Source of the DNA: Cheilinus undulatus
Taxonomy: Eukaryota; Chordata; Actinopteri; Labriformes; Labridae
Reading direction: 5' to 3'
Length of the DNA: 64,000 bases
Assembly: GCF_018320785.1 (NCBI RefSeq)
Contig: NC_054878.1
Location: 42,073,023 to 42,137,022, forward strand
In this document: piece by piece, positions 4,652-62,504 of the stretch
How positions within the stretch are numbered: position 1 is the first letter of the stretch
How the letters are laid out: each line of letters opens with the position of its first letter
Program-made: the position numbers and the translations under genes
The notes under the pieces: model-generated
Told to the model about the DNA's origin: nothing
What the model saw: only the letters and a program-made list of their open reading frames with translations
Databases searched by the model: none

Positions 4652-7600
4652 ATGGACGAAGAAAGACCAAGAGGTGAGACAGAAATCTTACTCTTTTCGT
4701 TTATTGCTAAGATGATTCGCTTTCACTTTTACATCAAAGTTATATACGTGTGGCAAAGAAGGACAAGGGCTATAACAGATTTACACCAATGCAAGCCAAA
4801 CAACGCCACCTAGGAACTTTGACCCAAGGAGTTTTATCCAGTTCTAAAGATAAGAGGCAAACACAGGTTCAGCTCTACAGGAAGACAGACGTGGTTCAGA
4901 AGCAAATAAACTGTATTCATATCTGTAAATGCAAAAATAAATTAATGTAACTGGAAGTGTCTGCAGAAAGAAAAAGGAGTTAGAGATTGGCAGTGAATTT
5001 CAAGTCAAAATTATGGAAAGGATGTATCAAAATTTTATTACAATTTATTCTTTTAACAATTAGTCTTTAACTAATAAAACACTTTCAGGTGAAATGGTGT
5101 AAAAAGAAGAACTGTGCCCTCATAGCAGAATTATCTTCATGCATGGCAATGCACAGTCTCATGCTGCAAAGAATCCCTCTGTGTCATTGGCTGCTATGGG
5201 CATAAAAGGAGAGAAACTCATGGTGTGGCCCCCATCCTCAACCCTACTGAGAACCTTTGGAGCATCCTCAAGCTAAAGATCTATGAGGGTGGGAGGAAGT
5301 TCACATCAAAAGAAGGGGTCCTATGTTAACATGTAACTTGGCCTGTGAAGATGTTTTTGATTGAAATAGCTTTTGATTTCAGTAAATATGACCTCCTAAT
5401 GCTGCAAATTCAACAAATGAACATTTTCAGTTCTTTACAACGTATAAAATGTTTTTAAACTGTTGTGCTTAATTTGGAACAGTGCATTTTAAGTTTTTTT
5501 TATTTTCTATTTTTGAAGTTATCATTGGGAGGTTTGATAGATTTTGAAACAATCTAATGGTTGATGACTTGAAAATTATACTGACTGTCATTTGAATTGA
5601 ATATTTCGGAAAATCAGAGAAAAATATCATTTGCATAATGATTTGGAGCATGATGTATTCTGATTTTGTAAGCCCACTTTTTTATTCTCAGTAGGACTTC
5701 CAGGTAAAATAATTAAATCACAAGCATTAAAGTGACTCAGACATGTTTTCTGTCTTCAGTGTCCTGGAGAAAGTTTTAATTAGTCTTTAATTAATAAAAC
5801 ACTGCCAGGTGAAATGACTAAAACTGACAAAAAGGGAAGGGGGAGTGAGTGGAAGCTAGCAAGAGGGAGGCAGTCTACCAAAGGAAGTGTCCCAGGAGTG
5901 CACTTACCCACCACACGTGAACTCACTGCAAACACGGCAAACAGGTGCAGACTACTGTGTCCCAGTGCGCCTGTCACTACAACAAAAAGGTGCAGGGAAC
6001 CACCCAGAGTGCCTAGCCTCCACCGCTAGCCAGCAACCACTGCACTGTAGGGGACAAGAAAGAAAACGTTACACAAAAGAAATAGTTAAAACCTATGTAA
6101 AACCAGTTGTTCCGCTAAAAAAAGGCCTATTTTAACAATTCAGTGAAAATGCTTACACAAGAGAATAAAGCAAAACCTAAGGACCAAACAGAAGACAAAA
6201 CAGCAGCTGATTGTGTCTGAAATATAAAAACCAGAATCATTATACTGTCATAAAAATATAATAAATGTGTAATAATCTCATACACTTCCTATCAACAGTA
6301 TGCAGCTTGTCATACCTGCACAGGTAGCTACATTTAGCAGCTGTCCGCTGATCCAGCTTTACACCACTACAAAGATACAAATGTTAACTTCCATTGAAAC
6401 AATTAAAATGTGTTCAACAATGTTCTAGAAGGTGACAAACCTTGATTCAATGGACACCAAGATGACCAGGTAAAAGTGTGCAAACAGGAAGGAAACTATT
6501 TAAAACAAACACAATTTGACTAATGATTAAAAGCTTTCAACTCAAGTTAAACAACAGACTAAAATGATCAAGGCCACAGTTCCTACCTCAGATCTGGCCA
6601 TGCGGCAGCTACCAGGCAAAGACAAAGGGTAAAGACGCAGCTATCCTGCCACAGGTGGCTTAAATAGGCTCTGCCAATTTAGAGGGGGAGGAGCTGACCT
6701 ACTTTTGCACCCAGATTCTCTCTGCTACATATGCAAAACATTCCAACATTCAGCAAAGATTTAATATTTGAGTTGTTTTATTAAATGTCTCCAAAGCAGC
6801 ATTTAAGAGTGAAAGAAAAAACAAACAGCAGTTAGAAGCATTAGTGTTTGTTTAACCATCCAGTGGCTCCATTAAAAGAGGTAGTTCCAGCTCTGTTTTG
6901 TATGGAAATCCATGTGTGCCCCTGGAAAGAAGGATAATATATATTTACAGTGCTTAAAAAATCTATTAGACCACCTGCCATATTTGTCTCAAAGACCATC
7001 CAGCATCATGAAGTGCTTTAATGCGGACTCTTTCATTTTCAGTGAGCTCTCCACATTTTACCATTTTGAACAGGAATGAGGAATTTCAAACTGAATTCAC
7101 CTTTTTATACCCAAATTTGAGCTGGCTCACTGGGCTTCTCTGAGAAGTCAGAAATTAGCCAAGCATAACATTCAACCACTAAAACTCATTTTTCTGTTCA
7201 GGAATGCAAGTAAATAATTTTAATTTGAAATATTAATCAAGAAATAATAATGCGCTTTACTATTTTTTCAGCTTTTTTGTGAATCAGTAAATTTGAAAAT
7301 TTGTGGATAACAATAATAATTATATTTTAGCATTAAAATATCATTTGGGTTAAAGAGCTTCTACATATTGGTGTATTAACCATTGCAGAAACATAAAAAA
7401 AATGTGTGTGTGTGTATATATATATATATACACACAGAATTACATGAGTTTAGTTTTTTATGATTCTGTTGAACCACAATTTATAATTTGTCAGTTTCAA
7501 GTTATTTTAGTGACTATTTTTTCCTGTTTTTTTTTCTTTTTTTTTTTTTTTTTAACAGAAGTGTACCAACACCTGTGTCCATGTGTGTAAATTAAAAAAC

Positions 7601-59920: not shown

Positions 59921-62504
59921 ATGGAAGAAGAAAGACCAAGAGGTGAGACAGAAAATTACTCTTTTTATTTATTGCTAAAATGATTCGCTTACATTTTTCT
60001 GACAAAACTAAGTTATACACACAAAATAAAAACGTCATCATTATCAGCACCATTATGTTTTCATCAAAAATATTCAGACATGCTATGCAAAACACTCCAA
60101 CATTCCAATATTCAGCAAAACATTCAAACTTTGAATGTTTTATTAAACATCTCCAAAGCAGCATTTAAGAGTGAAAGAAAACCCAAATAGATGGAAACAT
60201 GGCTTTAGGAACCTTTTTGTTTAACATTTCAGTAAAAAAAAAAAAACTAGTCCCAGTTAATCTGTTTGTATGGAAATCCATCTCTGCCCCTGGTAAAGAA
60301 AATACACATTAAGAAGTATAGACATACTATATATGCAGATAAAGGCGTAATGAGGAAGGTTTCAGCCAGACAAATTCATGGGATTAAGAGAGCAGATGCT
60401 AAAATGCCATTACAAAGCAGCAAACAGGTGTTTGAAGCTGCTGGTGCCTCTGGAGTCCCACCAACCTCAAGGTGTAGGATCCTCCAGAGGCTTGCAGTCT
60501 TGCATAAACCTACTATTCAGCCACCCCTAACCAATGCTCACAAGCAGAAACGGTTGCAGTGGGCCCAGAAATACATAAAGACTCATTTTCAAACAGTCCT
60601 GTTTACTGATGAGTGCCGTGGAGCCCTGGATGGTCCAGGTGGATAGAGTAGTTATCATTGGGAAGTTTGTTTGATAAAAGTGAATTATGCTCCATCAGTT
60701 GATGATTTGAAATTTTACTGACTGTCATTTGCATTAAATATTTAGGAAAATCAGAGAAACATATTTGCATAATAATTTGGAGTGCGGTATATAATGTGCA
60801 TTGTGATTTTGTATGCCCACTTCTTTTTTATTCCCAGTAGGACTTCCAGTTAAAATAATGAAATCACAAGCATTAAAGTGACTCAGACATGTTTTCTGTC
60901 TTCAGTGCCTTGGCGAAAGTTCTATGTCCACCTGTCAGGAAGGACCAATGACGCTCATCTCCCCTGGGTATCAAGATTTGTAGGTATTGGCCAAGTTAAG
61001 GTGGTCTCTCCTGAGGACAGTGACTACATCCTGCTGTTCTGTCCCATCGCATCCAGAGTTGGAACAGACATCAGCGAGGCTCTGGAAAGTATTCCAGGTA
61101 GGCAATGGATCAGAGACAACTGACAAACTAAAAATCGAATATTTGTTTGATTGAAATCATATTCAAATAATAATTTGGAACAGTGTATATATACTAGAAA
61201 ACAAATGATCTCCTTTTATTGTTTTTTTCCTGATATTTTTAAGTGAAGACATGTCTGTGTTTACAGCTGGTGACAAGGAAGTCATCCTTGTGGTGATGCA
61301 TCACACCTTCAACAAAGATCATATTGTGGCTGACAGCAGGAGGCAGGTCAACAACACAAATGTCCGCCTGGTTGTGGACACTCTGTTCTTCGAGGGACGT
61401 CCCCTGGAGTCTAACCTTAATGAAATCGCATGGGATGATATCAAGACTTTTTTTGGTGTCCGTGGCCATGCCAAGGTAAAGCTAGATATATCAGTCTGAT
61501 TAATTCAATGCATGATCTTACTTGCTCTGATCTTAACTGGCAGCCTGAGTGAGCTTAATATTACTGTGAGACTGATTTCACAAACTAGTTATAAACTCAC
61601 CACTGAGGCAAACTGTTCTCTTCAACAAATCTGATGCTCAGCCAAGCTGCTCTGAGCTCTAGTTCACTCTGCTGTGAAGAGGAAAATATGGAGGGTGTGA
61701 CATGAAAGGAGTCAGAGCGCCCTCTACTGGAAATATAATAGAACACAGACATCATGTCTAAGTAAAACCAAGTCCTATTCCCTTCACTGTGTCACTGAAA
61801 AAACAGAAGTGTTACAAGGGACATATTTTACCCTTTTAAGACAAGTTTATATTGTTTTCAGAGTTCCCCAAAACATGCCTGTGAAGTTTGTAGCTGAAAA
61901 AACACTCCAGTATTGGATTGTTTCATGTTAAAAACCCCTCTGTTTCAGCCCTGCTCAGAACAAACCGTTTCTGTGTGTGGCTTTAAATGTTAGTTAGTTG
62001 TCTGACCTTGCCCCCTGACCATGCTCCATCAAGAAATGGATGTGGCTTAATGAATGTGGCTCTCCTGATCCTCCTCTCAGCTAGAGGAGGATCAGGAAAG
62101 GCGGGAGGAACTTTCTTCCAAGTGGGGAGGGCCAGCGCAACCTTGGGGCGGGGTACTCCCCACATGACATCATGAGGGGAAATATGAGAACGGCTTGTTT
62201 TAGCACACATTTTCTGAAAAGTGGAGGGGGTGGGGGGGGGGTGGGGGCAGGGAATGGATGTTTCTGGTACTTGAGGGGATTGTGGTCAGGCCAGGGGCAC
62301 ATGTTTTTGTTTGATAAGTGATTTTTTGCATAATATGTCCCCTTTAACCTCAGCATCCATCAACCAACTATTGGCTGATGAACATTTACTTATAATATGC
62401 TATAATTGGCCAGTCAAGTCTTCCAAGTTTATGAATTGTTTTAAGTTTTTTATTATTCTCAATATAATACTGTGTCAATCTTTTTTCCTTCATTTCAGGT
62501 ATGA
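59921..62504 (+). CDS. Gene D: family protein that has lost exon 4 and its membrane tail, ~142 aa
   Basis: Exons 59921-59942 (MEEERPR), 60906-61097 and 61267-61475 are open and in phase (VPWRKFYVHLSGRTNDAHLPW, CPIASRVGTDI, VILVVMHHTF, VDTLFFEGRPL, GVRGHAK). Just after exon 3 (about 61515) a deletion joins the intron to text that in gene C lies beyond exon 4, at about 58773, so exon 4 is gone. Splicing exon 3 directly to the terminal exon (62499) gives GTA TGA, a stop at 62502-62504, instead of the membrane helix. That exon still reads MKNLVIAFQTVWAAILSLIT, SFVRGLRCFG in its old frame to 62593. The predicted product is soluble and ends at the domain. It may equally be a decaying gene, since its promoter is also incomplete. 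Confidence 0.68.
60297..60660 (+). mobile_element. Tc1-like transposase fragment in intron 1 of gene D
   Basis: The plus frame reads VSARQIHGIKRADAKMPLQS, GVPPTSRCRILQRL, HKQKRLQWAQKYIK and VLFTDECRGALDGPGG. This is the second helix-turn-helix and the first catalytic Asp block of a fish Tc1 transposase. The back half and both ends are missing; gene A carries back-half remains at 5110-5310. Confidence 0.85.
61717..61730 (-). promoter_or_regulatory. CTCF-like motif, reverse
   Basis: GCGCCCTCTACTGG, identical to the motif in gene C and in the matching place of gene D's last intron. Confidence 0.55.
61812..62344 (+). mobile_element. Dispersed non-autonomous element in the last intron of gene D
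   Basis: The ends aagggacatattttaccc and ataatatgtccccttt are inverted relatives. The inverted sibling lies at 13960-14625. Genes A and C lack it at this position, so it inserted after the copies separated. It includes a guanine-rich run at 62225-62252 able to form a G-quadruplex. Window positions 1-54 are the end of another copy. Confidence 0.75.

Follow-up and report, generated by a model that had tools for sequence, protein, structure and literature searches.

A fast-turning-over tandem gene family of ray-finned fish, with a predicted fold match to two fish virus polyproteins, as a candidate virus-facing defence family

What does the head-to-tail array of small related exons on contig NC_054878.1 of the wrasse Cheilinus undulatus encode, and could it serve defence against viruses? 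The array was analysed in a 64,000-nt stretch of that contig (the window, to which all positions below refer) and, more widely, in 204 kb consisting of the window and 14 pieces around it, in a genome of 1.17 Gb. It encodes a real, undescribed protein family of known fold class. We judge the chances to be about even that this is a fast-turning-over, virus-facing innate-defence family of fish whose domain was captured by fish viruses, the immune role and the mechanism being what we infer from the evidence below.

The family domain is encoded in the wrasse by two exons, A and B, with an intron inside the domain. All four motifs given in a preliminary description of the window (KFYVHLSG, SDYILLFCPI.SRVG.DI, VILVVMHHTF, and VDTLFFEG) were found there. 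The AlphaFold model of a wrasse member (predicted local distance difference test, pLDDT, of 88.7) had a confident Rossmann/flavodoxin-like fold and a helix at residues 147-187, and the model of a carp family protein reached a pLDDT of 87.0. Five main strands alternate with helices in one domain of about 130 amino acids, as in flavodoxin-like and Rossmann-like folds. Thus, of the "TIR or flavodoxin-like" fold that had been proposed, the alternating flavodoxin-like arrangement was supported by the predicted models, whereas TIR membership by sequence was not. In 89 divergent sequences, seven columns were invariant and many others were conserved at 90% or more; a polar set consisting of H25, S57-R58, T61-D62, H83-H84-T85, S95, D109, and N123 was conserved at 92-100%. 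Comparison with solved structures gave no credible sequence relative, the best match (0.041) being a designed-looking entry, and UPF0004 rows appeared in the Pfam search for only two of the 89 members (best E value 0.0036).

When the wrasse model was compared with BFVD, 920 matches were obtained at E ≤ 10, and just two of them reached E ≤ 1e-3: the first piece of pp1ab from Chinook salmon bafinivirus (151 columns at 26% identity, E 1.3e-12) and the first piece of the Wenling yellow goosefish calicivirus polyprotein (E 3.8e-6, 18%). The carp model gave 1035 matches, and the two at E ≤ 1e-3 were the same bafinivirus (E 2.7e-14, 19% over 386 columns, root-mean-square deviation (rmsd) 19.9) and the same calicivirus (E 5.4e-5, rmsd 2.2, 135 columns, 22%). 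The 386-column match might represent two copies of the domain in a different relative orientation, or an alignment extended in error. The two models are of different proteins, but their underlying alignments share sequences. No other nidovirus or calicivirus in BFVD reached E ≤ 1e-3 with either model. An unnamed viral protein, A0A8F0WPF4, showed short matches in several pieces with a probability of 1.00 (72 columns at 28% and 65 columns at 34%, with E values of 3.1e-3 and 3.3e-2). Bafinivirus isolates differ by two ORF1a (open reading frame 1a) segments of 537 and 480 nt, according to the accessible parts of PMC7290303. When the 959-nt 5' untranslated region and the protein lengths given for another isolate in the accessible parts of PMC9230003 are applied, both segments would fall in the first fifth of pp1ab, like the matched piece; that these variable segments are the family domain is speculation. 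The accessible parts of three papers on the two viruses (PMC7290303, PMC13200540, and PMC9230003) mention no host-like domain. The fold match to the polyproteins of two fish RNA viruses would be the best evidence for an immune role, and it is indirect.

Local expansion of one fish family, as the preliminary description had proposed, was borne out on a larger scale than claimed. The cluster comprised 22 A+B modules over 167 kb in the 204 kb surveyed, all on the plus strand, of which 18 were intact and four disrupted. A six-frame search of the genome with exon A returned 23 rows, every one at C14:42.03-42.20 Mb on the contig of the window. Repeat analysis and exon-by-exon BLAST found eight exons A and eight exons B in the window, one module more than the seven previously counted, and four start units, in line with the earlier count of at least four start exons. 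Exon A was 192 nt long (195 in two copies), open in all eight copies, and flanked in each by a TCTTCAG acceptor and a GTAGG donor. Exon B was open in seven of eight copies, with a frameshift in the copy at about 36,430. Tandem units of about 5 kb between 30.5 and 46.9 kb were 92-98% alike across long stretches, and start units 68.6 kb apart were both 100% identical to the query along 201 nt. Positions 1-1707 and 62289-64000 of the window are 99.7% identical copies within a larger segmental duplication of the cluster.

Relatives were numerous in databases, as had been supposed, with hundreds of fish proteins standing as "uncharacterized". The first protein search yielded 22 family proteins at E ≤ 1e-3 among 23 candidates, and the profile search, with 3570 candidates, yielded 383 proteins at E ≤ 1. 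In the best 120 of these 383 matches, which formed the organism survey, the named organisms were ray-finned fish (Amia, Megalops, Ictalurus, Cyprinus, Osmerus, and percomorphs); two Oreochromis records among the listed matches were also labelled "Mustela putorius fu", and lgn/metaclust rows carried no organism. Cheilinus records LOC121521655, LOC121521576, and LOC121521164 ("uncharacterized protein si:ch211-245h14.1" and relatives) have exons that match the cluster exactly. Pfam gave no family for two window models, no search being aimed at SEFIR, and across the 89 members the commonest of 137 families matched just five, so that Pfam has no model of the domain. Bacterial and archaeal contigs contained no relative by three peptide patterns, and PADLOC and NCBIfam gave nothing credible as a bacterial defence relative. 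Protein P0124 had a Cas5d row (1e-12) and a HypC row (4.6e-18, over its cut-off); both were absent for P0001 and P0118 and were therefore taken as inflated by repeats.

Among 193 retrieved proteins searched with a hidden Markov model of the domain, 100 had one copy, 47 had two, and 46 had three to 12. Ten to 12 copies were counted in 29 proteins, the same number as the listed Dicentrarchus isoforms of two genes; P0124 (LOC127368639 X5) has 12. In a tree of 55 domains, to which no database protein contributed more than four, all 18 intact cluster modules formed one clade (98/94 support) apart from Labrus, Xyrichtys, Halichoeres, Semicossyphus, and Notolabrus, which we take to be wrasse genera, and the Notolabrus and Dicentrarchus protein copies each grouped in clades of their own. 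Copies thus arise or become homogenised lineage by lineage. In Alosa (P0179, P0181) and Coilia grayii (P0194, P0182) the domain is placed after fibronectin type III repeats, and P0194 adds stonustoxin-type helical and thioredoxin-like domains. P0160 from Labrus bergylta has three domains followed by a HECT ubiquitin-ligase match above the Pfam cut-off, which may be a gene-model join.

The literature is consistent with the earlier statement that the function is undescribed, for no description was found under the symbols searched. No paper was found under ch211-245h14, and si:dkey-58f10.12,.13, and.14, whose kinship to the family is not established, appeared in tables of two papers only. The accessible parts of a 2026 review of fish interferon-stimulated genes (PMC13030082) do not name the family, and broader searches, including one on piscaniviruses, gave nothing on point.

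The start units carry elements that we name from what we take to be the consensus of interferon regulatory factor (IRF) sites and of positive regulatory domain I (PRDI):

4342-4358, plus strand: IRF/PRDI-like element AAGTGAAAGTGTTTCAC upstream of gene 1
26641-26657, plus strand: IRF-like element AAGTGAAAGTATTTCAC upstream of gene 2
55714-55730, plus strand: IRF/PRDI-like element upstream of gene 3

The IRF/PRDI-like sequence AAGTGAAAGTG occurred six times in the 204 kb with both strands searched, each time in a start unit, and AAAAGTGAAA occurred 11 times, 10 of them in start units. With a stricter expression, an IRF-like element was present in nine of 17 start units. Alignment of ten start units gave a conserved block around AAAACAAAAGTGAAAGTGTTTCACAGACAGGG. 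The canonical interferon-stimulated response element (ISRE) GAAANNGAAA was found in none of 16 start units, taken with 600 bp of upstream and 50 bp of downstream sequence, as compared with 8.75% of random 650-bp windows; its count in both orientations over the 204 kb was 31. The IRF-type promoters proposed previously therefore hold for the IRF/PRDI-like element, at three of the four start units in the window, and not for the classical ISRE.

Full-length open reading frames of P0006, P0017, and P0019 (source tag "lgn") lie within contigs of about 1 kb, which we took as read assemblies. Because an intron interrupts the domain in the wrasse genes, these contigs suggest that family genes give spliced transcripts. 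The open reading frame of another contig, P0022, apparently reads into an intron.

The exons of the window, all on the plus strand, were arranged in three genes as follows:

4332-4673, 26628-26976, 55700-56034, and 59722-59942, plus strand: the four start units
4648-4673, plus strand: gene 1 start exon, ATG at 4652, MDEERPR
7635-7826, plus strand: gene 1 exon A, first half of the domain, 192 nt, acceptor and donor present, open
9404-9612, plus strand: gene 1 exon B, second half of the domain
9704-9740, plus strand: gene 1 short linker exon C (from 9713 with an alternative acceptor)
13208-13296, plus strand: gene 1 last exon, membrane helix MKNVLIIVLTFTLGIILGRLIERYYYYC and stop
26955-26976, plus strand: gene 2 start exon, MDEERRI; the N-terminus of LOC121521164 is MENRDDILLRAMDEERRI
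30669-31633, plus strand: gene 2 module 1, exon A 30669-30860, exon B 31425-31633
35669-36636, plus strand: gene 2 module 2, exon A 35669-35863, exon B from 36430, frameshifted, end approximate
40670-41639, plus strand: gene 2 module 3, exon A 40670-40864, exon B 41431-41639
45575-46532, plus strand: gene 2 module 4, exon A 45575-45766, exon B 46330-46532
47673-48235, plus strand: gene 2 module 5, exon A 47673-47864, exon B 48033-48235
53365-53748, plus strand: gene 2 last exon in the NCBI model, charged tail without a membrane helix
55847-55881 and 56009-56034, plus strand: gene 3 start exons, exact match to LOC121521576 X2 (P0028)
57729-58320, plus strand: gene 3 module 1, exon A 57729-57920, exon B 58118-58320
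58421-58448, plus strand: gene 3 linker exon C
59312-59394, plus strand: gene 3 first membrane-helix exon
59917-59942, plus strand: start-type exon ahead of gene 3 module 2, ATG at 59921
60906-61475, plus strand: gene 3 module 2, exon A 60906-61097, exon B 61267-61475
62289-64000, plus strand: 99.7% copy of 1-1707, with a membrane-helix-type exon of the family in each copy (about 178-310 and 62466-62602)

Gene 1, from the ATG at 4652 through the domain at 7635-9612 to the membrane exon at 13208, gave a single-domain joined model of 179 or 182 amino acids depending on the choice of acceptor, which reproduces the 179-residue protein with a C-terminal helix described before. For gene 2, the NCBI model LOC121521164 (P0154) unites the five modules of 30.7-48.2 kb in one five-domain protein. 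Its last exon encodes the charged tail, and its most hydrophobic segment sits within a domain, so the model has no membrane anchor. At the frameshifted exon B of module 2, the NCBI model continues in another frame and joins onward. The charged-tail exons lie at 51862-53748, and the last of them recurs 68.6 kb upstream (P0166). Although this tail matched nothing in Pfam, it resembles what we presume to be the BESS-type terminus of a MADF/Harbinger protein. Translation revealed a transposase remnant, which we take to be Tc1/mariner-like, at about 50888-51301, after module 5 and ahead of the tail exons. Gene 3 corresponds by exact exon match to P0028, and the models give it two domains and membrane helices. 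P0028 runs from the start at 55847 through a domain, the membrane exon at 59312, a second start-type exon, and exon A at 60906 to exons beyond the window; it uses an exon B at window coordinate 69966 in place of 61267-61475 and has its last exon at 72680. The proposal that intact copies end in one membrane helix thus stands for gene 1 and fails for the five-domain LOC121521164, and the picture of one module as one gene with a terminal helix is only partly right, because LOC121521164 and P0028 join modules. The tail-anchor arrangement, a soluble domain and then one C-terminal helix, was seen in gene 1 and P0001. A C-terminal hydrophobic helix was present in 70 of the 100 single-domain family proteins, and six others have tails shorter than 19 amino acids. 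Single-domain members are therefore predicted to be mostly held in the membrane by this helix with the domain facing the cytosol. Downstream of the cluster, on the same strand, lies a Triadin-type N-terminal exon (Pfam Asp-B-Hydro_N, 20.9 bits, cut-off 23), which agrees with the occurrence of the family domain in the Nibea record "Triadin, partial".

The mechanism that we propose starts from a family of ray-finned fish proteins with one to 12 copies of the 130-amino-acid Rossmann/flavodoxin-like domain, mostly with one C-terminal membrane helix, which expands and turns over separately in each lineage and has IRF-like promoter elements. The domain may bind a ligand or partner made during infection, presumably in a pocket lined by the conserved polar residues, and membrane-bound or tandem copies could cooperate as a sensor or trap. 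The bafinivirus and the calicivirus would have taken the domain into their polyproteins, for use as a decoy or competitor. A more specific form of this proposal, to which we give somewhat less than even chances, is a copy-number-variable antiviral family whose domain was captured on two or more occasions by unrelated RNA viruses of fish, namely a calicivirus and a nidovirus with perhaps two tandem copies, in a two-sided contest over one ligand or partner. Several results weigh against a virus-facing family with its own IRF-like control. Viral contigs scanned with two family alignments contained no viral copy by sequence, although a bafinivirus primer was also absent from these contigs. The most conserved block of the start units (0.977 against a mean of 0.693) is another one, not the IRF-like element, and shared descent explains part of the sharing of elements among start units. 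No named virus was among the matches listed in the family protein search (best 120 of 139). Since the sequence scans gave no match, the viral link rests on structure comparison at 18-26% identity.

The same cluster could come from a fast-duplicating membrane-protein family of fish without an immune role, under weak constraint, whose copies are gained and lost by unequal crossing over; we consider this a possible but rather unlikely explanation. For the 18 intact modules (153 pairs), the mean nonsynonymous and synonymous divergences (dN and dS) were 0.118 and 0.123, dN was below dS in 84 pairs, and the pooled ratio of the corresponding proportions (pN/pS) was 0.96. By segment the ratio ranged from 0.59 to 1.9, a description without a significance test. 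Judged from these coding sequences, module evolution looks neutral overall, with conserved and fast segments. Together with the disruption of four of 22 modules, the near-identity of the 5-kb units, and a gene model that continues into an unrelated charged tail, this agrees with weak constraint. However, 18 of 22 modules are still open, the invariant and highly conserved columns persist in 89 divergent sequences, the family ranges from bowfin to wrasses, and the fold matches fish virus polyproteins. An origin in the opposite direction, in which a viral domain entered a fish genome and then multiplied as a gene family, seems to us the most improbable of the explanations weighed here. The sole viral fold matches at E ≤ 1e-3 are indeed to fish viruses, and no relative was seen outside fish in the best 120 of 383 matches or in prokaryote contigs. 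But host copies are widespread (bowfin, tarpon, carp, and percomorphs) and the wrasse domain is split by an intron, whereas the viral copies occur in two unrelated families; hence, transfer from host to virus needs fewer odd steps.

The remaining alternatives concern what the domain does. A divergent TIR-like signalling adaptor is very unlikely. PF01582 matched 51 places in the wrasse genome and none in C14:42.03-42.20 Mb, and the profile-profile comparison by hhalign that had been suggested for this family came out against TIR membership, with a probability of 0.1-0.2% as compared with 99-100% for TIR controls (11 of the 51 places). No TIR family was among the Pfam families listed for the 89 members (25 of 137 listed); P0160 had one sub-cutoff TIR_2 match. 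An enzyme of the flavodoxin or deoxyribosyltransferase kind, modifying a nucleotide or cofactor by a chemistry that virus and host both use, with immunity incidental, appears unlikely; the fold is common to such enzymes, and the fold matches are tied among unrelated functions. Should a fish nidovirus and a fish calicivirus indeed have this domain, as the virus-facing defence reading holds, it would point to a fish-only defence pathway and to how two virus families meet it, and would offer an assayable host-virus protein pair with a bearing on viral disease of farmed fish. The cluster is in any case a clear case of lineage-by-lineage turnover, with one to 12 domains per protein.

Among known systems, records of the si:ch211-245h14.1 type belong to the same family as the wrasse cluster and carry automatic names only, without a domain model. 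TIR domains have the alternating alpha/beta fold class in common with the wrasse family, without sequence relation. FldH, the MiaB N-domain, DNPH1, and Arf GTPases share the general flavodoxin-like/Rossmann-like fold with it but have no credible sequence relation. Gig1 resembles the family in being fish-only, in tandem copies, and in small size (accessible parts of PMC12247413). The same parts of that paper describe the salmon gig1-like open reading frames as 222-240 amino acids long, single-exon, and assigned to PANTHER PTHR38706, whereas an intron interrupts the wrasse domain, which often has a membrane helix behind it; identity with Gig1 was set aside on this comparison of gene structure. 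The closest structural matches, far ahead of the rest, are the first pieces of the bafinivirus and calicivirus polyproteins, which stand at 18-26% identity to the fish domain and were compared with it by overall fold.

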